Part shown: piece after piece, positions 15,527 to 27,797 of the stretch
Layout: the number at the start of each line of letters is the position of its first letter
Position numbering within the stretch: the first letter of the stretch is position 1
NCBI GenBank assembly: GCA_019058425.1
Contig: JAHPYZ010000038.1
Span: 1 to 43,167 of the forward strand
Reading direction: 5' to 3'
From: Promethearchaeota archaeon
GTDB lineage: Archaea; Asgardarchaeota; Lokiarchaeia; Sigyniarchaeales; SOKP01
Length of the DNA: 43,167 nt
Program-made: the position numbers and the translations under genes
The notes under the pieces: model-generated
What the model was told of the DNA's origin: nothing
Database searches by the model: none
What the model saw: the letters and a program-made list of their open reading frames with translations, nothing else

Positions 15527-15547
15527 ATGTACTTGAGAGAGAGTGTA

Positions 15548-16393
15548 ATGCAACTATTTAATATTAGTGATAAGGGAGAATTGATTAAGATAGATAGATT
15601 AGAATTTAATGAGAATGATTGTTATCTCGTTGATGATGAAGATAAAAATACTATTTATATTTGGGTAGGTTTAGAGGTCCTTCAAACAAAAAAGGATGTT
15701 ATAGCAGACATCGCTAGAAAGATTGATAAAGAACGCGGTGGATCAGCAAAAATCTTAATCATGAAACAACGAAGAGAGTATGGATCATTTTTAGCTATGA
15801 TGCATGATCTTGAAAAAGGATTAATACCGGGAAAATCCATTGAAAGACGGCCAGAATTCGTATTTAAAGCACCCCCTAAGACGATAGAATCTGTTAAAAC
15901 TGACGCTATACCTAAAGAGAGAGATGAAAATGTTGAAACAAGAACATTAGAATGGTTTCAACAATTTATGAATCATAGAAGTTATGAACCACCCATAAAG
16001 GCAGAAAAGCCAGCTGAAACTGTAGATTTCGTTAAGTTTGAACAAACTCCAATCATAGTTGAAGACAAGACTAAGGAACAAATGATAGTTGAAGAAAGAA
16101 AAGAAGAACCAGAAGAGCAAGAAGAATCAGATCTTAAGAAACAAATAAGGGAAGCAGCATATTATCTTTCTTTAGATGAATATAGTTATGACCAACTATG
16201 TTGGCTTCTAGCAGAGAAAATTCAGAAAATTAATTTAGAAATGCCTTCAATTGAAGATATTAGAAAAAAGGCAGAAGAAGTCTTCAACTCAAGCTGTACA
16301 TATGATGAACTCTGTTGGCTAAATGCAGAAATGGATATCTTAACTCAAAAAAGCTTTTTGGAAATAGCAGAGAGAAAAAGGTTTAATTATTAA
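15548..16393 (+). CDS. Gelsolin-like domain protein with two C-terminal CWL repeats
   Basis: The N-terminal ~95 residues match a single gelsolin/villin-type domain: the fold core YLVDDEDKNTIYIWVG followed by an amphipathic helix and a GGSAKILIM strand. Gelsolin domains are a hallmark of Asgard archaea, where they act with actin homologues. A flexible Glu/Lys/Pro linker (~105-205) follows. The end holds two tandem units of about 38 residues, each with a YDxLCWLxAE core (YSYDQLCWLLAE and CTYDELCWLNAE, residues 219-230 and 257-268 counted from the upstream Met). I do not recognise this repeat; its Cys-Trp pair looks like a small helical binding module. The frame extends to an ATG at 15527, but the Met at 15548 starts exactly at the domain and follows a purine-rich stretch. 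Confidence 0.8.
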   Translation: MQLFNISDKGELIKIDRLEFNENDCYLVDDEDKNTIYIWVGLEVLQTKKDVIADIARKIDKERGGSAKILIMKQRREYGSFLAMMHDLEKGLIPGKSIERRPEFVFKAPPKTIESVKTDAIPKERDENVETRTLEWFQQFMNHRSYEPPIKAEKPAETVDFVKFEQTPIIVEDKTKEQMIVEERKEEPEEQEESDLKKQIREAAYYLSLDEYSYDQLCWLLAEKIQKINLEMPSIEDIRKKAEEVFNSSCTYDELCWLNAEMDILTQKSFLEIAERKRFNY

Positions 16394-16432: not shown

Positions 16433-16738
16433 TTATCCACAACAACTATTGTTTTGTGGATTTTTCGCTACTGCCCGTGCATTCCATAAACATCCGCAGC
16501 CTTTTTGTTCTTGTAATATTATAGCCATAGTCGGACAATTTCTTTTACAAGCAGAACATTCGGTACAACGTTCTGGTTTATACATCTCATATTTTCCTTT
16601 ATTATTTGGATTGGGGATTCCAAATGGACATACTTCACCACAGATTCCGCAACCTGTGCATAAATCAGGATTTATTGCGATTTTTGGAATATAATCTGAT
16701 AAATTTATTGTTGATGTTTTTAATGTTATTTTTACCAC
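16433..16738 (-). CDS. hgcB: HgcB-like 2[4Fe-4S] ferredoxin
   Basis: Two CxxCxxCxxxCP clusters (CTGCGICGEVCP and CTECSACKRNCP) are followed by the features that set HgcB apart from ordinary ferredoxins: a lone Cys after the second cluster (GCGC, in the place of the conserved GVGCA region) and a vicinal Cys pair at the C-terminus (SCCG). In characterised methylators HgcB supplies electrons to reduce the corrinoid of HgcA and its Cys residues handle Hg(II); both proteins are required. Here it lies 51 bases downstream of the HgcA-like gene on the same strand. The start is GTG at 16738, overlapping an AGGTGGT purine stretch, so the exact first codon is uncertain. Confidence 0.8.
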   Translation of the reverse strand: MVKITLKTSTINLSDYIPKIAINPDLCTGCGICGEVCPFGIPNPNNKGKYEMYKPERCTECSACKRNCPTMAIILQEQKGCGCLWNARAVAKNPQNNSCCG

Positions 16739-16789
16739 CTTTTTTTTCTCTAATTATATTATTTTATATCAAATTTATTTTGTTTTGTT

Positions 16790-18472
16790 TTAAATTATTA
16801 AAAAAAATATGAAACCAAAAGCTTTAACTCCAATCCCAATTATCAATAAGATCATATTTATTTTGCTGAATACAGGATACTCATCTTGAATTTCTCTTGG
16901 ACTAGTCGCCATAGAATATCCACTAAATGACATTGTCGAGAAAAACGCTAACCAAAAGTAAAAAATGCTACTCAGAAGAATAGAGGGTAATGAGTAATGA
17001 AGAAGCCAAGAAATCCCACCGAATAATAAAACATTAATAACTCCAAATACAATTCCTTTAGTGATAAATTTCCGTGTAAAATTCGTTAAAGGGAAGAATA
17101 TCGCGATAAGTGCATTTGATATAATAATCCAGAGCCAGAGTTCGCCTACAATCCATAATTCTGATAACCATATAGTATTAATGAAACTTAACCCAATAAA
17201 TAGCATAATTAAAGCAATACTGGGCCACAGAAAGATTTTTCGAAATAGAAATGTTGTATGTGTAATTTCTGCTCGAAATCGATGCGAGATTGTAAATTTT
17301 GCTAATTTCATTTTATTTGGTTTTCGTGCGGGACGTTCTTCTAAGAATTTAGGTATATCTTTAGCCCATACAGGACCATATAAAATATTGAATGGAAAAT
17401 CTGGTGTTTCAGCTTTAATCAGTGGTGCTGCTATACCCCCTGCTGAGAGTTGAGGTACAATTAGTGTCTTTTTATTAGTAATGTTTGAAATCCCCGAAGT
17501 TTTAACAGCCTCTATTAGTTGTTTGTTTCCAAAATTGTTTCCTCGGGCAGCACACCAAACATTTATTCCTCTTGAATCAACACATAATACCCAAGCATCG
17601 GTTCCTTTAAGAGCACGCATCACTTTAATATACGTATAAACATAATTAGCAGTTACAATAATAGGTGAAGCTTCATTAGGATTACCAGATTGATATATCC
17701 CTGGTTCAATTGGTACATGATCAATTTGTCCTGTAAATAAACAACGATATATACTCAATTGAGAACTAAATCCTTTATATTTTCTTGGTCTTGGACGATA
17801 AAATCCAGGGTTATCTAAATTACTAATTTTTATTAATTCAAGTACCTGAATTGATCCATGTCTCCACTTCTTCACTGCTGATATTTTAAATCCAATTGGT
17901 TCCAAATAATTTAAAAACCACTTTACTAAAAATGTACTTTCTATTCTGAGTCTTCTTAATTTCTTTTTATACCGCCAACGTTTAATATTAAACCCTAGCT
18001 TCCAAAAACCTGAGGGTACAAATTCAGCAGCAAGGATCATTCGACCGTTCGGTTTTAAAGCCTTCCAAGCATTTCTCAGAAAATTTTGCTGTTCAAACGG
18101 TCTAAGTTCTGAAAGCATAAATGTACTAACTATAAGATCTTTAGAGTTTTCATCAACGTTTAGATCATCAATACTGCCTATTTGATACGATAGTTTAAGA
18201 TCTGACTCAGAAGGGTAATTTTTCATAGCAGTTGTGATCATTTTCTGGTTTTTATCTATTGCCAGAACATCATTTCCTTTGAGTGCCATTTTAGCTGCAA
18301 AAATTCCCGTTCCGCACCCTACTTCAAGAATTTTCTCTTGGGTGTTAATTCGCTCTAATATCCAATTTTTTACTTCTTTATTCGCTCCTTTTGTCAAAGT
18401 AGTGAATTTTGAGTCGTATGACTCTGGTTCTAATTCCAATTTTCGCATATAGACAACGGCTATGTTATTCAC
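16790..18472 (-). CDS. hgcA: SAM methyltransferase - HgcA-like corrinoid membrane protein fusion
   Basis: Residues ~1-215 form a class I methyltransferase (motif I ILEVGCGTG at 48-56, LKPNGRMILAAE at 139-150). Residues ~235-385 are an HgcA/CFeSP-type corrinoid-binding domain: GNPNEASPIIVTANY, DAWVLCVDSRGINVWCAARG with the cap-helix Cys C307, TLIVPQLSAGGIAAP and ILYGPVWAKDIPKFL. About five membrane helices follow (~412-560), with MSFSGYSMATSPREI where HgcA proteins have a TSPSGV-like loop. Known family role: the corrinoid, ligated by this Cys, passes a methyl group to Hg(II). Odd points: the N-terminal methyltransferase fusion, and Arg-Gly where the canonical N(V/I)WCA(A/G)GK has Gly-Lys. The start may be GTG 18472 or the ATG at 18448; neither has a well-spaced ribosome-binding site. 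The next gene downstream is the HgcB-like ferredoxin. Confidence 0.8.
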   Translation of the reverse strand: MNNIAVVYMRKLELEPESYDSKFTTLTKGANKEVKNWILERINTQEKILEVGCGTGIFAAKMALKGNDVLAIDKNQKMITTAMKNYPSESDLKLSYQIGSIDDLNVDENSKDLIVSTFMLSELRPFEQQNFLRNAWKALKPNGRMILAAEFVPSGFWKLGFNIKRWRYKKKLRRLRIESTFLVKWFLNYLEPIGFKISAVKKWRHGSIQVLELIKISNLDNPGFYRPRPRKYKGFSSQLSIYRCLFTGQIDHVPIEPGIYQSGNPNEASPIIVTANYVYTYIKVMRALKGTDAWVLCVDSRGINVWCAARGNNFGNKQLIEAVKTSGISNITNKKTLIVPQLSAGGIAAPLIKAETPDFPFNILYGPVWAKDIPKFLEERPARKPNKMKLAKFTISHRFRAEITHTTFLFRKIFLWPSIALIMLFIGLSFINTIWLSELWIVGELWLWIIISNALIAIFFPLTNFTRKFITKGIVFGVINVLLFGGISWLLHYSLPSILLSSIFYFWLAFFSTMSFSGYSMATSPREIQDEYPVFSKINMILLIIGIGVKAFGFIFFLII

Positions 18473-18555
18473 ACCTTTATTTTTACTTTACCATATTTAA
18501 TTTAAAAAAATATATGATTTAATTCTAAAAATTTTAATCAATTTTAGAATTTTTT

Positions 18556-18642
18556 TTATTTACAACAGCAGTCATTTGATTGAGATTCTTCTTTTTCCTC
18601 TTTAACACCTTCAGAACAACAATTTTGGTTTTTTTCTTCCAT
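18556..18642 (-). CDS. 28-residue Cys-rich peptide in the hgc-like operon
   Basis: Sequence MEEKNQNCCSEGVKEEKEES continuing SQSNDCCCK-type: a CC pair near the N-terminus, an acidic/lysine-rich centre, and a CCC triplet just before the final Lys. Five of 28 residues are Cys. A good ribosome-binding site (GAGGT, about 7 bases before the ATG) supports translation. It sits between the iron-sulfur flavoprotein (37 bases upstream) and the HgcA-like gene (83 bases downstream), all on the minus strand. The Cys clusters suggest a metal or metalloid scavenger, carrier or metallothionein-like peptide serving this locus (inference). No known family recognised. Confidence 0.65.
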   Translation of the reverse strand: MEEKNQNCCSEGVKEEKEESQSNDCCCK

Positions 18643-18679
18643 TTTTATTACCTCTTTAAACTTTTTTTAAATTTATATA

Positions 18680-19279
18680 TTAAGTGTTGATTAGATCATC
18701 ACTTTCGTTTTTTTCTTGTAGTGTTTTTGTTAATTTTAAAATGTTGAATCCAAGAATTTCTGCTTGTTTTAACTGGTTTTCTTGGTTTAAAATATCACCT
18801 GGCTTGTCAGCTACAGCTTTTACCCCTGCTAATTCACCAGGAACGCATATAATTCCACATGAGAGCATCCACGCATAAATAGCATTAAGTGTTGTTACTT
18901 GACCTCCCGATGGTGCATTACCGACTGCAATAGCTCCACCTACTTTCCCCTCTAAAGGTTTTTCGATATGTACCGCATAGTGTCTATCAAGTATTGAGAG
19001 TAATTGGGCACTAACATTTAGGTAATATACAGGACTTGAGATTATTATTGCATTACACCATCGAAATGCATCATAAATCCCTTGCATATCATCATTAATT
19101 ATACAAGTACCAGATTCTCTACATGAGTTACAAGCGTTACAAGGTTTAATTTCTAATTCGCTTAAAAGAAAAGTTTTAACGTTCCATCCATTATGTTCGA
19201 AAGGTTTTAGCGCATGCCTTAAGAGGATTTCACTATTACCTTTCTTCCTAGGAGTCCCAGATATACCAATAACATTCAT
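18680..19279 (-). CDS. Iron-sulfur flavoprotein (Isf/NADPH-dependent FMN reductase family)
   Basis: A flavodoxin-like FMN reductase fold. The FMN phosphate loop is GISGTPRKKGNS (5-16), the compact cluster motif is C47-x2-C50-x2-C53-x5-C59, and SSPVYYLNVSAQL and GNAPSGGQVTTLNA bind flavin. This matches the Isf family described from methanogens, which moves electrons between ferredoxin and acceptors. As first gene of a probable operon with the Cys-rich peptide, HgcA-like and HgcB-like genes, it may feed low-potential electrons into corrinoid reduction (inference). The ATG at 19279 follows GAAAGTGG. The promoter lies in the 179-base divergent region shared with arsR. Confidence 0.88.
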   Translation of the reverse strand: MNVIGISGTPRKKGNSEILLRHALKPFEHNGWNVKTFLLSELEIKPCNACNSCRESGTCIINDDMQGIYDAFRWCNAIIISSPVYYLNVSAQLLSILDRHYAVHIEKPLEGKVGGAIAVGNAPSGGQVTTLNAIYAWMLSCGIICVPGELAGVKAVADKPGDILNQENQLKQAEILGFNILKLTKTLQEKNESDDLINT

Positions 19280-19458
19280 CCACTTTCACTCATAATAATA
19301 ACTTTATTGAAAATTATATTTTTAGGGGTTTATAATACTAATAGAATAGATTATATATAAGTTATTCGATTTGAATCTGGATTTATAAATATGAATAAGA
19401 TTTTTATAATTTCATTGATTCTATAATAGTAACAATATAATATTGCATTGATATTCAG
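19280..19458. promoter_or_regulatory. Divergent ArsR-type operator/promoter region
   Basis: Between the divergent flavoprotein and ArsR genes lie two perfect palindromic TATA-like boxes: TTATATATAA (19351-19360), well placed for the minus-strand operon, and ATTTATAAAT (19381-19390), well placed for arsR. Between them is ATTC-N5-GAAT (19364-19376), and a wider inverted repeat TTATTC (19362-19367)/GAATAA (19393-19398) surrounds the second box. A dimeric winged-helix repressor bound here would block both promoters. The repeats are seen; the regulatory role is inferred. Confidence 0.55.
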
Positions 19459-19851
19459 ATGAAGATAGAAAGAAAAAAAAAAATTAAGGAAACATTATGT
19501 GGATGTGATGATTGTTCTAATGGGGATATATACTTTGACAATTTACAGCAAATTGGAAAGGATTTAAATTTTGATCAAAATTTAACTTCATTGTCAATAT
19601 TTCTTAATGCTGTAGGAAATAAGGAACGTTTAACTATATTAACTGCATTAAAGGATAAAGAACGCTGCGTTTGTGAATTGGAAGCGATCTTAGATAAAGC
19701 TCAATCATCAATTTCTCATCATCTACGAGAATTAGAAAAAGTAGGCTTGATTCGGGGATGGAAAAAAGGGAAATATACTTATTATACCTTATTAGAAAAA
19801 GAATTTGAAAAAAATTTATTAAAACTAAATCAAAAATTCAGTTTTAAATAA
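19459..19851 (+). CDS. arsR: ArsR-family thiol metal(loid)-responsive repressor
   Basis: A winged-helix regulator of 130 residues. The metal-sensing motif of ArsR is present as ERCVCELE (C70, C72; classical form ELCVCDL), and the recognition helix region is AQSSISHHLRELEKVGLI (81-98). Unusually the N-terminal tail has three more Cys in CGCDDC (C14, C16, C19), which could complete a trigonal thiolate site for As(III), Sb(III), Hg(II) or Cd(II). Family members repress until the metal binds. It is divergent from the flavoprotein/peptide/HgcAB-like operon and the likely regulator of that operon as well as itself. ArsR-like genes are known to accompany hgcAB in several methylators. Confidence 0.88.
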   Translation: MKIERKKKIKETLCGCDDCSNGDIYFDNLQQIGKDLNFDQNLTSLSIFLNAVGNKERLTILTALKDKERCVCELEAILDKAQSSISHHLRELEKVGLIRGWKKGKYTYYTLLEKEFEKNLLKLNQKFSFK

Positions 19852-19986: not shown

Positions 19987-20580
19987 ATGGAAAATAATGA
20001 TGAATTAAAAGAAAAACTGTTTTGGAAAGGAATTTGGAGAGACTTTCGGATACCACTTATAGTAGTAATTTTTGCAGGTATTTGTGCGATTATCGGAGCC
20101 CTTCTTGTGTTATTTTGGTTTATAGGGGTAACTCCTCTTGGAGCATACGGTACAGCATTAATTGGTGAATGGAGAATGCACTGGGTCGTTGGATTTGTTA
20201 TCCTTTTATGTTTATGGGAACTTATTTGGGTTGGTATTCCAGCAGGATTGTTTTTTGGTTTAGGAGGTTATTTATGGTGGCGAAATTTAACTCCTGAAAA
20301 GAAGCAATTCTTCAAAGACAGAGAAAAGAAAGAGACCCATAGAAAGAAAGAATACGGCGGCGGTGGTGGATTTGGATTCTTTATGTTCTTATTTTATTGT
20401 ATTTATCTTGCTTTTGATGGACATTATAACGTACCTTTTGGTAACGAACCCTATACATATTGGGTATATGCATGGTTCTTAACAATAATGTGGCTCCTAA
20501 TTTATATTGGTATTCCAGCAGCAATAATTTTACTAATTGTATACTTTGCTTATTGGAGAAAGAAAAGAACACCTGAATAA
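19987..20580 (+). CDS. Four-helix membrane protein with an internal duplication
   Basis: Unrecognised, 197 residues, with about four membrane segments. Two units resemble each other: WELIWVGIPAGLFFGLGGYL (77-96) ending in RNLTPE, and WLLIYIGIPAAIILLIVYFA (169-188) ending in KRTPE. Each is a Trp-rich helix with an I-G-I-P-A core followed by a basic segment. A Gly-rich hinge (YGGGGGFGFF, about 123-132) and a charged loop join them. The N-terminus is cytoplasmic-like (Lys-rich). It lies 135 bases after arsR, so independent transcription is likely. It converges with the receptor gene 19 bases away. Confidence 0.6.
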   Translation: MENNDELKEKLFWKGIWRDFRIPLIVVIFAGICAIIGALLVLFWFIGVTPLGAYGTALIGEWRMHWVVGFVILLCLWELIWVGIPAGLFFGLGGYLWWRNLTPEKKQFFKDREKKETHRKKEYGGGGGFGFFMFLFYCIYLAFDGHYNVPFGNEPYTYWVYAWFLTIMWLLIYIGIPAAIILLIVYFAYWRKKRTPE

Positions 20581-24717: not shown

Positions 24718-26250
24718 TTAGGTACCAGCAATTCTTTTGGGGTACCTCGTCTGGACTTTCAAATTTTCTTGAAACATTATATTTAATAATTCAAAACGTT
24801 TCTCTTTTATGTTGTTGTCATACCATAAATTATTTAATTCATATGGATCTTTTTTACGATCAAATAGATCACCAAAATCTTCAAATCCTTCATATTTTGT
24901 AAGTTTATAATCCTTTGTTATGATATGTCTTAATCTTGCATTTATAATTCCAATTTCCTCATCGTTTTCAATAAAACAGCAATCTCTAGGTTGTGTGTCA
25001 TTATTTTCGGGGTTTTTTAAAACCGGAGTCATATCAAATCCTTGCATATCAGGAGGATGTTGACTTTCTTTTATTCCTAAGAGATTTAAAATAGTCTTGG
25101 GATAATCAATAGAACTCATTAAAGCATCAGTTTTTCCATGTTTAGTAATCCCTGGAACTTTCCAAATCATGGGTATATGAAATACTCCCATATAGGTTGA
25201 TGGACCTTTGAAAAGCATACCATGCTCACCCATTAAGTCACCATGATCACTAGTATATACTACTATAGTATTATCAGCATATCCAAGTTTATCGAGAGAC
25301 GCTAAAATCTGACCTACATAATCGTCAATTAATGAAAGAGTTCCATAAGTATAAGCAATAAATTTTTTTGCCTCTTTTTCTGTTGTTTCTCTAAGCATTG
25401 CTCCTGGCATTACATTGATATAAGGAGCTAAATAGGGATGATTTCTTAATTGTTCAAGATTATTAAAACTTTTAGGTAAATTAATATCTTCAGGATTATA
25501 CATATCCTTATACTTACCAGCAGGCCATACTGGCTGATGGGGATCAGGGAAAGAGCAATGAACATAAAAAGGTTTTTTCCCATAATCTCCCTTAGCATGT
25601 CTTTCGAAAAAAGCAATTGTTCTTTCAGCTACAAATGCACTAGAGTATAGTTTTTCTGGTATATCATGCTCAAGGAATATTGAAAAAAAGTTATCATCAA
25701 TATTTTTCCATCTTTCTCGCATAAGCTCTGCTTGTTTGGGTGATCTTTCTTCCAACCAATCCAAATAATGACCACATAAACAAGCTCCATGTCCTAATAC
25801 CGTTTCAACTTCTTGATATCCATAATATGGAATAGGAAATTTTTCTCGTACAGGATAATCTCCTTTTTGAGGAAATACCCAATCTTGAAAATTTTCTGTG
25901 GATCTATAATGGAGTTTATATGGGGCGACATTAAACTGATGATGTAATTTTCCGAATGCAGCAGTATGCCATCCCTTTTTTACGAGAGTTTGTGTGATTG
26001 TAGGAACCTTATTAGATAGAATCATCCCATTACTTCGAACTCCATGGACATTTGGATACAATCCTGTCAATAATGTTGCTCTGTTAGGCATACACATAGG
26101 GTTAGTACAGAAAGCATTAGTAAAATGTACGCCATCACTTGATAACCTATCTATATTTGGTGTCTTTAAAATCGGATTTCCCGAGCAACTCATGTGATCA
26201 TAACGCTGTTGATCCGTTATTATAAACAAAACATTCATTTTTTCACTCAT
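24718..26250 (-). CDS. Type I sulfatase, copy 1
   Basis: Arylsulfatase-superfamily hydrolase of 510 residues. The formylglycine motif is CMPNRATLLTG with C53, matching C-x-P-x-R. Metal ligands appear in ITDQQRYDH (11-19) and TSDHGDLMGEHG (C-terminal half). There is no signal peptide, so it should act in the cytoplasm on imported substrate. Activity needs conversion of C53 to formylglycine by an FGE or an anaerobic sulfatase-maturating enzyme; neither gene is in the window. It is a close paralogue of the neighbouring sulfatase, 20 bases away. A GGAG about 10 bases before ATG 26250 supports the start. Confidence 0.93.
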   Translation of the reverse strand: MSEKMNVLFIITDQQRYDHMSCSGNPILKTPNIDRLSSDGVHFTNAFCTNPMCMPNRATLLTGLYPNVHGVRSNGMILSNKVPTITQTLVKKGWHTAAFGKLHHQFNVAPYKLHYRSTENFQDWVFPQKGDYPVREKFPIPYYGYQEVETVLGHGACLCGHYLDWLEERSPKQAELMRERWKNIDDNFFSIFLEHDIPEKLYSSAFVAERTIAFFERHAKGDYGKKPFYVHCSFPDPHQPVWPAGKYKDMYNPEDINLPKSFNNLEQLRNHPYLAPYINVMPGAMLRETTEKEAKKFIAYTYGTLSLIDDYVGQILASLDKLGYADNTIVVYTSDHGDLMGEHGMLFKGPSTYMGVFHIPMIWKVPGITKHGKTDALMSSIDYPKTILNLLGIKESQHPPDMQGFDMTPVLKNPENNDTQPRDCCFIENDEEIGIINARLRHIITKDYKLTKYEGFEDFGDLFDRKKDPYELNNLWYDNNIKEKRFELLNIMFQENLKVQTRYPKRIAGT

Positions 26251-26270
26251 TATCTTAATACTCCAATTTG

Positions 26271-27797
26271 TTATGATCCAGCTATACGTTTAGGATAATG
26301 AGTTTGTGCCTTAAGATTTTCATGTAATAGCTTATTTACCAATTCAAATCGTTTTTCATTAAACTTCTCTTCATACCATAAATTATTTAATTCCTGAGGA
26401 TCATTTCTGCGATCATAAATATCACCAAAATTGCTAAGACTATTGTATATTGTTAATTTATAATCCTCGGTAATTAAATGACGCAATCTAGCTTTATAAG
26501 TCCCAACTTCCTCATCATTTTCTATTAAAACGTGGTCTCTTACTTTCTCATCAGGATTTGATAAAATAGGAGAAATATCATAACCTTGCATTTCTGGGGG
26601 ATGGTGTCTCTCTTTTATCCCTAGAAGATTTAAAATTGTTTTTGCATAATCGATTGAACTTACTAAAGAGTTAGAAATTCCTCCCGATTTTGTTACTCCG
26701 GGCACTTTCCATATCAAAGGTAACTGTAAAACACCATTAAAGGGACAAGGTCCCTTAAAAAGCAAACCATGATCACCCATTAAATCTCCATGATCACTCA
26801 TAAAAACGACAATAGTATTATCTGAGTAACCCAGTTTTTCTAATGAAGCTAAGATCTGACCAATACTATTATCGACATATCCTATTGCTGCATATGTTAA
26901 TGCTGTTATCTTTCGGACTTCTTCTTCTGTTGATTCACGGATCCAAGCTTTATCAAAAGGGGGATTCCGTAAATGATATCCTAAGTATTCATGATTATAT
27001 AAATTCTTTATATCATCAAAATTTAATGGGAGTTCAATATCTTCTGGTTTATATTGGTCTTGATAATCCTTAGGGGGATATATTGGATAATGGGGATCTG
27101 GAAATGAACAATGTAAATAAAAGGGTTTACTTCCATAATCACCATTTTTATACCTTTCAAGGAAGGCTAGCGTCCTGTCTCTAACCCATGTGGTGTTATA
27201 GAGTTCTTCAGGAATTGGATCACAATAAAGACTAAATATATAGTCATAATTCATTAATCTTCGTTTCATATCTTCAGCTATTTCTGGTGACCTTTCTTCT
27301 AACCATTCTAAATAATGTCCCGCACACACTGTACCATTTCCAGAGATCAATTCAACTTCTTCATAACCATAATAAGGTAATGGAAAATGTTCTCTCACAG
27401 GATAACTTATATCTCTCTCAAGAGACCAATCAGTAAAACTTTCTGCAGATCTATACTTATGTTTAAAAGCCCCAATCCAGTATTGGTGGTGAATTTTTCC
27501 TATAGCTGCAGTCTGCCATCCTCTTTTTACAAGTGTTTGAGTTATAGTAGGTACCTCTTTAGATAGAATCATACCATTACTGCGAACTCCATGAACGTTC
27601 GGATACACTCCAGTAAGCAACGTCGCTCTATTAGGCATACAAATTGGATTATTACAAAAATGATTTGTAAATCTAACACCCTCTGCTGCTAATTTATCAA
27701 GGTTAGGAGTCCTTACTGTTGAATTTCCTGCACAGCTCATATGGTCTGCTCGCATTGCGTCAGTTATGATAAACAGAACATTATATTTTTCATTCAT
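26271..27797 (-). CDS. Type I sulfatase, copy 2
   Basis: Paralogue of the downstream sulfatase along its whole length (508 residues), with the same C53 motif CMPNRATLLTG and the same DHGDLMGDHG metal loop. The N-terminal metal motif differs: ITDAMRADH in place of ITDQQRYDH, so the residue after Asp13 is Ala rather than Gln. This may shift metal or substrate preference. A tandem duplication followed by divergence is the simplest origin. It is cytoplasmic by lack of a signal peptide, and is preceded by the saccharopine-dehydrogenase-like gene with a 6-base gap, indicating one transcript. Confidence 0.93.
   Translation of the reverse strand: MNEKYNVLFIITDAMRADHMSCAGNSTVRTPNLDKLAAEGVRFTNHFCNNPICMPNRATLLTGVYPNVHGVRSNGMILSKEVPTITQTLVKRGWQTAAIGKIHHQYWIGAFKHKYRSAESFTDWSLERDISYPVREHFPLPYYGYEEVELISGNGTVCAGHYLEWLEERSPEIAEDMKRRLMNYDYIFSLYCDPIPEELYNTTWVRDRTLAFLERYKNGDYGSKPFYLHCSFPDPHYPIYPPKDYQDQYKPEDIELPLNFDDIKNLYNHEYLGYHLRNPPFDKAWIRESTEEEVRKITALTYAAIGYVDNSIGQILASLEKLGYSDNTIVVFMSDHGDLMGDHGLLFKGPCPFNGVLQLPLIWKVPGVTKSGGISNSLVSSIDYAKTILNLLGIKERHHPPEMQGYDISPILSNPDEKVRDHVLIENDEEVGTYKARLRHLITEDYKLTIYNSLSNFGDIYDRRNDPQELNNLWYEEKFNEKRFELVNKLLHENLKAQTHYPKRIAGS

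Follow-up and report, generated by a model that had tools for sequence, protein, structure and literature searches.

The window, that is the whole stretch of 43,167 nucleotides from a Promethearchaeota archaeon analysed here, holds at this locus four genes on one strand facing an ArsR-type regulator on the other (Table 1). The five genes placed by the original prediction were all found at those positions, and the profile-model scores of the HgcA-type protein, HgcB and ArsR lie beyond chance. Its account of the genes was nonetheless incomplete, in that the 560-aa "HgcA" also has an N-terminal SAM methyltransferase domain that had been missed.

Table 1. Genes and sequence features of the locus, with positions in the window.
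Feature	Positions	Strand	Basis
HgcB-like 2x[4Fe-4S] ferredoxin, 101 aa, C81/C83 and terminal C99-C100	16433..16738	(-)	NF040864, 55.6 bits; Cys columns
CpaM-HgcA fusion protein, 560 aa, GTG start, single unbroken ORF	16790..18472	(-)	relatives with the same fusion
CpaM-type SAM methyltransferase domain, residues 6-212; SAM motif I G52-x-G54-x-G56, acidic D73	17837..18457	(-)	NF043040, below cut-off
HgcA-type corrinoid and membrane domain, residues 254-549	16826..17713	(-)	NF040863, below cut-off; Pfam CdhD 239-344
Cap-helix motif NVWCAARG, residues 304-311; Cys307, Gly311	17540..17563	(-)	alignment; Cys307 is the expected cobalt ligand
Membrane part, about five hydrophobic helices, residues 408-559	16796..17251	(-)	Kyte-Doolittle segments, overlaps merged by eye
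Cys-rich peptide, 28 aa (CC...CCC)	18556..18642	(-)	layout common to nine same-genus loci
FMN-reductase-fold flavoprotein with CNACNSCRESGTC	18680..19279	(-)	Pfam FMN_red, 8.6e-27
ArsR/SmtB regulator, C70-x-C72 site and N-terminal Cys cluster	19459..19851	(+)	NF033788, 70.2 bits, cut-off 55
Operator-like motif TTCAAATCGA, between ArsR and the operon	19366..19375	(-)	k-mer count, regions beside ArsR

The host looks to be an Asgard archaeon, as had been supposed: gelsolin-repeat proteins are present in this genome and in 0/14 control genomes. An assembly artefact can be ruled out as the origin of the fusion, because it is one ORF here, recurs in 65 loci and is flanked by genes (gelsolin, cupin, MFS) that recur in eight same-genus loci, the window included. 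The same recurrence makes binning contamination unlikely (bin contamination 7.44%). A search of viral contigs found no relative.

Class of the HgcA-like protein and its HgcB

The canonical HgcA model NF040863 scores the window protein at about 174.2-175.7 bits, under its cut-off of 275, which none of the phylum's 227 genomes reaches. The HgcAB-like fusion model NF043039 gives 183 bits (cut-off 285); it describes HgcA and HgcB in one chain, and the window HgcB is a separate gene. In agreement with the original prediction, the corrinoid domain groups with HgcA, apart from the gamma subunit of CFeSP (CdhE/AcsC) of the Wood-Ljungdahl pathway, with 100/100 support, and two trees rule out a CdhD/CFeSP identity. 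The gamma subunit has a homologous corrinoid-binding domain, but neither the HgcA-type membrane domain nor the NVWC cap motif. The window protein falls in a clade of its own (98/95 with 11 rows, 100 with 24 rows) and is excluded from that of canonical HgcA (80/85 in one tree, 98 SH-aLRT in the other); these trees settle the placement in a class, not the deep branching order among classes.

The cap-helix Cys (NVWC, C307 in the window) is found in 32/32 canonical and 65/65 other rows. Position 311 is Gly in the window and in 65/65 non-canonical rows, and Lys in canonical HgcA, whose cap motif we take to be NVWCAAGKG. Protein searches in four other phyla returned 67 HgcA with GKG, four of these from seed genomes, and three CpaM-coupled HgcA, all with Gly; one Chloroflexota protein has neither residue. 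Judged by sequence, the window protein is HgcA-like and not canonical HgcA. The earlier label "mercury-methylation-type" is thus not supported, in view of the HgcA score below the cut-off in this and all other genomes of the phylum, the non-canonical clade, the Gly for Lys and a methyltransferase domain absent from the canonical loci surveyed, and further of a gene context in relatives that points to arsenic instead.

The ferredoxin scores below the HgcB cut-off of 99 bits (Table 1), but has the predicted HgcB features: two clusters (C27/30/33/37 and C58/61/64/68), the extra C83 and the terminal C99-C100. Mercury methylation is tied to this extra Cys and to the terminal CC of HgcB. The C83 column is Cys in 56/65 separate Asgard HgcBs, 128/133 canonical HgcBs and 0/33 HgcA-HgcB fusions (triple fusions included), and the HgcB part of the fused HgcAB-like proteins has neither the extra Cys nor the CC tail.

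Coupling of CpaM to HgcA across the phylum

Residues 6-212 match the CpaM model NF043040 with 137.6 bits, under the cut-off of 180, and Pfam Methyltransf_25 with 9.4e-17. Among 106 aligned CpaM domains, the SAM-motif glycines G52, G54 and G56 occur in 106, 106 and 105, respectively, and the acidic D73 in 103, a conservation that rules out a degenerate methyltransferase domain. The domain combines this SAM motif with coupling to an HgcA-type corrinoid protein and, on these sequence features, is of the CpaM type.

We surveyed 107 HgcA-family ORFs from the 227 genomes. In 65 of them CpaM and HgcA form one chain, in 38 CpaM lies within 150 nt upstream, and in two more it is found 990 and 2577 nt upstream; for the last two, both abutting contig ends, it was not found. 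Four architectures occur: CpaM-HgcA (62 loci, of which 56 have HgcB as a gene of its own no more than 200 nt downstream), HgcA-HgcB with a separate CpaM (30 loci), HgcA alone (12 loci, eight with both CpaM and HgcB adjacent) and a single CpaM-HgcA-HgcB chain (three loci). This exchange of three modules among four architectures suggests that CpaM, HgcA and HgcB act as one enzyme. The CpaM-HgcA fusions do not form one clade (five changes in one tree, two in the other). No CpaM, fused or adjacent, was found among at least 119 canonical loci, which were chosen by the cap motif they then show and of which 24/119 have less than 800 nt before the HgcA domain, where such a CpaM could escape. The unselected check is given by the protein searches, in which none of 67 canonical HgcA had a fused or adjacent CpaM (1/67 with less than 800 nt upstream).

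On another contig, this genome encodes an HgcAB-like fusion (368 bits) and a stand-alone CpaM (250 bits), both above their cut-offs. That system (NF043039 with NF043040) resembles the window locus in its CpaM partner and non-Lys cap motif, but there HgcA is joined to HgcB, CpaM is separate, and the HgcB part has neither the extra Cys nor the terminal CC; in its 29 loci with sufficient flank, no ArsR or ACR3 was found upstream.

Arsenic genes and regulation

Of the CpaM-HgcA loci, 55 have an upstream flank of 1.5 kb or more. In 38 of these the flank contains ArsR, a Cys-rich MarR or ACR3; the other 17 have none of the three within the sequence read, which in most reaches about 2.2 kb upstream. 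Among the other kinds with enough flank the count is 0/38 (HgcA-HgcB 29, HgcA alone 9), and one of the three triple fusions has such a gene, at a distance. Most arsenic-linked loci come from one family and are therefore not independent, and the neighbour tallies rest on limited flanks and on our own HMMs and clusters built from window proteins and fetched loci. Moreover, coupling to CpaM does not by itself imply arsenic, since the HgcA-HgcB loci with CpaM show 0/29 arsenic context.

The comparison of gene order across Asgard genomes, proposed at the outset, pointed to arsenic rather than mercury: in sister genomes, a divergent ArsR faces ACR3, CpaM-HgcA, HgcB and two further families (fam3, fam4), in that order. 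ACR3 directly precedes the fusion in 16 loci; two examples score 278 and 274 bits over the full length of TIGR00832, just under the cut-off of 282.8. One ACR3-type operon with the cassette also contains ArsM (347 bits, cut-off 263). Beside the window fusion, neither ACR3 nor ArsM was found. Elsewhere, this genome has ArsM and, on another contig, an operon in which a divergent ArsR faces ACR3, fam3 and fam4 without the CpaM-HgcA cassette. An ArsM thus accompanies the cassette in one operon and again in this genome, so simple methylation of arsenite is a task already provided for.

As predicted, the regulator opposite the window operon is an ArsR of the metal(loid) type, scoring above its cut-off (Table 1). 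C70 and C72 are both kept in 26/26 aligned ArsRs, and the orientation of ArsR at CpaM-HgcA loci differs between families (divergent in 23, same strand in five). The motif TTCAAATCGA occurs with at most one mismatch in 22/26 regions beside ArsR, against a mean of 0.58 and a maximum of 3 in 200 mononucleotide shuffles; the regions used for the count are related to one another and had also served to select the motif, and the shuffle is the sole control. The motif was not found at this genome's own ACR3 operon, and an inverted-repeat search gave no clear palindrome common to the regions beside ArsR.

The Cys-rich peptide is probably a real gene, as nine same-genus loci (window included) have an ORF of 25-37 aa with the same CC...CC layout. 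Pairwise codon differences among these ORFs are 332 non-synonymous and 85 synonymous, so only the layout is kept. The flavoprotein lies beside six of the 62 CpaM-HgcA loci, window included.

A candidate metal(loid) methyltransferase

On balance we favour, with modest confidence, a membrane-bound SAM:corrinoid:metal(loid) methyltransferase as the product of the locus, its native substrate being more likely arsenic(III) than mercury(II). A native role other than mercury methylation had already been allowed by the original prediction, and the arsenic context of the relatives agrees with it. The sequences themselves show the domains, the intact SAM motif, the placement of the corrinoid domain in its class, the Cys residues, the link of CpaM to this class of HgcA and, in relatives, the surrounding arsenic genes; we infer the transfer, substrate, reaction direction and regulation as follows. 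The CpaM domain would bind SAM and methylate the cob(I)alamin carried by the HgcA domain to which it is fused, the product being methylcob(III)alamin whose lower ligand is Cys307; we know of no class I methyltransferase for which methyl transfer from SAM to cob(I)alamin has been demonstrated. The Co(I) state would be restored with electrons from HgcB, whose C83 and terminal CC may deliver a thiophilic metal(loid) ion to the methylated corrinoid. The product of this methylation would be exported or processed further. ArsR would repress the operon until a metal(loid) occupies its Cys site. For purified canonical HgcAB, a methyl group derived from SAM via methylcobalamin was reported in 2024 (PMC11588087), and the portion of that paper available to us names no SAM-binding domain.

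Could the locus instead encode an HgcAB that methylates mercury and belongs to an unusual lineage, its fused methyltransferase doing the job that canonical HgcAB does with free SAM? The likeness is considerable: a CFeSP-type corrinoid domain placed with HgcA and not CFeSP, the NVWC cap helix with its Cys, the membrane domain, and an HgcB with both clusters, C83 and CC tail are all kept. ArsR is sometimes near canonical hgcAB too, which is also under ArsR control according to the part of PMC10349881 available to us. However, the fused N-terminal SAM methyltransferase, the Gly in place of Lys, the separate clade, the sub-cut-off scores for HgcA and HgcB, and the ACR3 and ArsM neighbours of relatives set the window locus apart, and we regard mercury as an unlikely native substrate. 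Additionally, as far as the consulted part of PMC5893877 goes, two cultured organisms with fused hgcAB gave methylmercury not above controls, although those genes are of the HgcA-HgcB kind, unlike the window.

Two enzymes might also share one chain and work in turn, CpaM methylating the metal(loid) directly like ArsM and HgcA adding or removing a further methyl group. CpaM has the SAM methyltransferase fold and the operon context in common with ArsM, which can occur in the operon, and arsenite methyltransferase models score the window domain at 38-48 bits, making it distantly ArsM-like. ArsM methylates arsenic directly, with no corrinoid partner. Yet the coupling of CpaM to HgcA persists where no arsenic gene was found nearby, no Cys is among the residues common to at least 90% of CpaM domains, and a long branch at 100 separates CpaM from two ArsM-type rows, one of them identified as ArsM, in a tree of which only the larger groups were used because two weak methyltransferase rows with very long branches fell among CpaM. 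We find this arrangement improbable. Slightly less probable still is the methylation of an organic metabolite or cell component, with ArsR and ACR3 adjoining by chance or through shared stress regulation: this genome's stand-alone CpaM is UbiE/MenG-like (75 bits) and the HgcA-HgcB fusions have neither nearby metal genes nor the Cys tail, but the CpaM-HgcA class keeps that tail, ArsR occurs in two arrangements across families, and ACR3 sits within the same gene run.

The part of PMC10349881 available to us states a role of HgcAB besides methylmercury production as an open question. A natural fusion of a SAM methyltransferase with HgcA makes the question of the methyl donor testable within a single protein, and the ACR3, ArsR and ArsM neighbours in relatives provide a specific, testable guess at the native substrate. 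The result is also a caution for surveys: a match of an Asgard protein to an HgcA model is, by sequence alone, no ground for scoring a mercury methylator. More tentatively, the HgcA family may comprise two biochemical classes, a canonical one with the cap Lys that uses SAM without a partner domain, and a Gly class in which a dedicated SAM methyltransferase charges the corrinoid. In Asgard archaea, the Gly class might then detoxify arsenic as a metalloid methyltransferase that depends on a corrinoid and differs from ArsM, and the HgcAB family might have begun with the handling of metalloids, not of mercury.

The window locus and its genome

All five genes named in the original prediction (HgcB-like ferredoxin, HgcA, Cys peptide, flavoprotein and ArsR) are present where it had placed them. 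The reading of the 560-aa ORF as a plain HgcA did not hold: uninterrupted by internal stops, it carries an N-terminal CpaM-type (corrinoid protein-associated) methyltransferase domain, matched by several Pfam methyltransferase families as well, ahead of an HgcA-type part. The HgcA and HgcB identities stood in so far as profile-HMM matches were found, all of them under the curated cut-offs. NCBIfam already names CpaM and an HgcAB-like fusion, so the link of CpaM to corrinoid proteins is known to curators. In the open-access literature, preprints excluded, we found nothing on the CpaM-HgcA fusion or its ars-operon setting.

The guess of an Asgard host fits the gelsolin-repeat proteins of the window genome, against none of 14 control genomes being positive; from these we infer the assignment. 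One gelsolin-repeat protein adjoins the operon and is kept there in eight loci including the window, which also fits an Asgard host. A membrane protein without a Pfam family above its cut-off adjoins ArsR and is kept in 11 same-genus loci, again counting the window. Further along lie two neighbouring sulfatase-like ORFs with near-alike sequences.

Features of the window and of compared loci (model scores in bits, curated cut-offs in brackets)
Feature	Position	Strand	Remarks
Gelsolin-repeat protein	15527-16393	+	
HgcB-like ferredoxin	16433-16738	-	HgcB model 55.6 (99)
CpaM-HgcA fusion	16790-18472	-	560 aa
CpaM domain	residues 6-212 of fusion	-	NF043040 137.6 (180)
HgcA-type domain	residues 253-549 of fusion	-	NF043039 183 (285); NF040863 174 (275)
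Membrane part	residues 408-559 of fusion	-	about 5 segments by hydropathy
ArsR	19459-19851	+	
Membrane protein	19987-20580	+	197 aa
Sulfatase-like ORFs	24718-27797	-	508 and 510 aa; family assigned by eye
Second HgcA-family locus, window genome (L003 / L173)	G000:C105, ~78.8-80.6 kb		stand-alone CpaM (219 aa), then HgcA-HgcB fusion (363 aa); both above NCBIfam cut-offs
Cys-rich AbrB/MazE-like ORFs	L350:2632-3018; L144:2014-2268; L162:2029-2292; L175:2710-2982		ahead of ArsM or CpaM-HgcA

Distribution and placement of the fusion

Among 227 searched genomes of the window's phylum, mostly MAG data, the protein query P0001 matched 91 at 1e-20 and the canonical HgcA model NF040863 matched 110 at the same threshold, its curated cut-off being reached in none of the 227. 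We kept the 106 HgcA-family places above 130 bits with NF040863; the next score was 103.7 bits, where long CFeSP-type proteins begin in that ranking. Two partial places were added, one of which (L175) supplied a 107th HgcA ORF. Called with our own HMMs made from window proteins, and with several ORFs cut by contig ends, the 107 comprise 62 CpaM-HgcA fusions, 30 HgcA-HgcB fusions, 12 HgcA alone and three CpaM-HgcA-HgcB chains (L163, L166 and L172; 640-647 aa). CpaM is fused in 65 ORFs, lies at most 150 nt upstream in 38, and 990 and 2577 nt upstream in two; it was not found for L085 and L165, both at contig ends. A separate HgcB follows within 200 nt downstream in 56 of the 62 CpaM-HgcA ORFs, and none was found there in L076, L107, L147, L168, L169 and L175.

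Canonical HgcA has Lys in its cap helix (NVWCAAGKG), at the position of Gly311 in the window protein (NVWCAARG). A pattern search for NVWCAAGKG in named genomes gave at least 119 canonical loci. None of the 119 listed has CpaM fused or adjacent (reporting thresholds 60 and 40 bits), and a weak methyltransferase match (49-71 bits) lies more than 1 kb away in five; 24 of them have less than 800 nt before the HgcA domain, so that CpaM absence in those 24 carries little weight. Because these loci were chosen by motif, protein searches were run in four other phyla, each containing one seed genome. Matches came from 31 of 246 genomes in the phylum with the Methanolobus seed, 8 of 251 with the Anaerolineales seed, 7 of 243 with the Thermoplasmata seed and 28 of 348 with the Bacillota seed (74 in total). 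In 67 of the 74 matches the GKG motif is present and CpaM (≥40 bits) absent within about 1.5 kb either side, a flank shorter at contig ends (at least 800 nt upstream in 66 of 67); four of the 67 are from motif-picked seed genomes, and some others may overlap the 119 loci. Two Chloroflexota proteins are CpaM-HgcA fusions with Gly replacing Lys, and one further match, in which HgcA is fused to HgcB and CpaM lies 289 nt upstream, shows the same replacement. L346, whose ORF extends past the end of the stretch, has neither residue, and the remaining three matches, of which the Methanolobus phylum contributed one, are CFeSP-like or unclassified. Lys thus pairs with CpaM absence and Gly with CpaM presence, L346 being the one exception. 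Across the aligned rows, Lys occurs in 32 of 32 canonical proteins (by selection) and Gly in all 65 others.

Two HgcA trees, a quick one of 108 rows and a careful one of 65, each give support of 100 to the split between CFeSP gamma subunits and the HgcA family, which bears out the predicted placement of the corrinoid domain. The window falls in a clade of CpaM-HgcA fusions (support 100 with 24 rows in one tree, 98/95 with 11 rows in the other), and other such fusions are placed elsewhere within the family. The canonical clade excludes the window, with support of 98 in the former tree and 80/85 in the latter, to which two divergent Bacillota rows had been added. A settled order of the deep HgcA-family branches was not obtained from the trees; the CpaM domain tree recovers the same larger groups. 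L295, L299, L301 and L310 encode CFeSP-gamma-like proteins of about 600 aa in which the HgcA model covers 255-266 aa, a longer match than in CFeSP-gamma-like proteins of 470-490 aa.

HgcB cysteines and the arsenic gene neighbourhood

At the column of C83 in the window's HgcB, Cys is found in 56 of the 65 separate HgcBs from Asgard genomes, in 128 of the 133 canonical ones and in none of 33 HgcA-HgcB fusions, triple fusions included; the counts with CC among the final 12 residues are 47, 106 and one, respectively. On this alignment C83 would be the counterpart of C73 in PMC11588087, whose introduction describes the importance of such HgcB cysteines for mercury methylation. Judged by sequence, the HgcB of the window class retains features said to be necessary for that reaction. 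All 26 aligned ArsR relatives have C70-x-C72, and of these 16 have the N-terminal Cys at position 14 of the window's ArsR and 21 that at position 16. Beside ArsR, the motif TTCAAATCGA occurs with at most one mismatch in 22 of 26 regions (shuffle mean 0.58), having been chosen from the same, related regions; at this tolerance it was not found in L074, L119, L141 and L349.

Gene-order comparison among relatives found a recurring ars-type run in sister genomes, most commonly a divergent ArsR followed by ACR3, CpaM-HgcA, HgcB, fam3 and fam4. Some fam3 members have a Cys-rich start, and for the tested members of both families neither Pfam (at gathering level) nor NCBIfam gave a match. Of 55 CpaM-HgcA loci having 1.5 kb or more of upstream sequence, 38 carry ACR3, ArsR or a Cys-rich MarR there, as does none of 38 other loci (29 HgcA-HgcB, 9 HgcA alone), the arsenic-linked loci strongly sharing ancestry; among the triple fusions ACR3 occurs in one of three, at greater distance. 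ACR3 stands immediately ahead of CpaM-HgcA (<100 nt) in 16 loci, and in L133 ArsM (347 bits, cut-off 263) lies between the two; the two ACR3 members tested scored 278 and 274 bits, under the cut-off of 282.8. The window's own genome also carries, on contig C60 (L349), divergent ArsR, ACR3, fam3 and fam4 without the CpaM-HgcA cassette (ArsR, fam3 and fam4 identified by eye), and on contig C76 an ArsM (337.6 bits) behind a Cys-rich AbrB-like ORF recognised by eye. In L144 and L175 an ORF of this kind, matching Pfam PF04014, stands before the fusion, and L162 has a similar one without a hit. These ORFs possibly sense metal(loid)s, and are perhaps akin to the prlF/mazE-type antitoxin gene reported ahead of hgcA in archaeal methylators (PMC10349881). 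According to the same paper, hgcAB of P. mercurii ND132 is under ArsR control, with an arsenic response shown; acr3 and arsM are reported from Asgard genomes (PMC10060404).

A possible methyl transfer route

In purified canonical HgcAB, SAM methylates the cobalamin and transfer to mercury is a second step (Zheng et al., PMC11588087), on which the authors raise open questions; the portions of that paper we examined name no SAM-binding domain for HgcAB. In the window protein, the CpaM domain could take the first step, passing the SAM methyl group to the corrinoid of the fused HgcA-type domain, and a natural CpaM-HgcA fusion is what one would expect if it did. The second step, methyl transfer, would require a thiophilic acceptor, which is favoured by ArsR, ACR3 and the Cys tail of HgcB. 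Fused hgcAB of Methanococcoides methylutens gave methylmercury not above controls (PMC5893877), as did that of Pyrococcus furiosus (cited therein). For the substrate of the CpaM-HgcA system, only gene context leads us to prefer arsenic over mercury.
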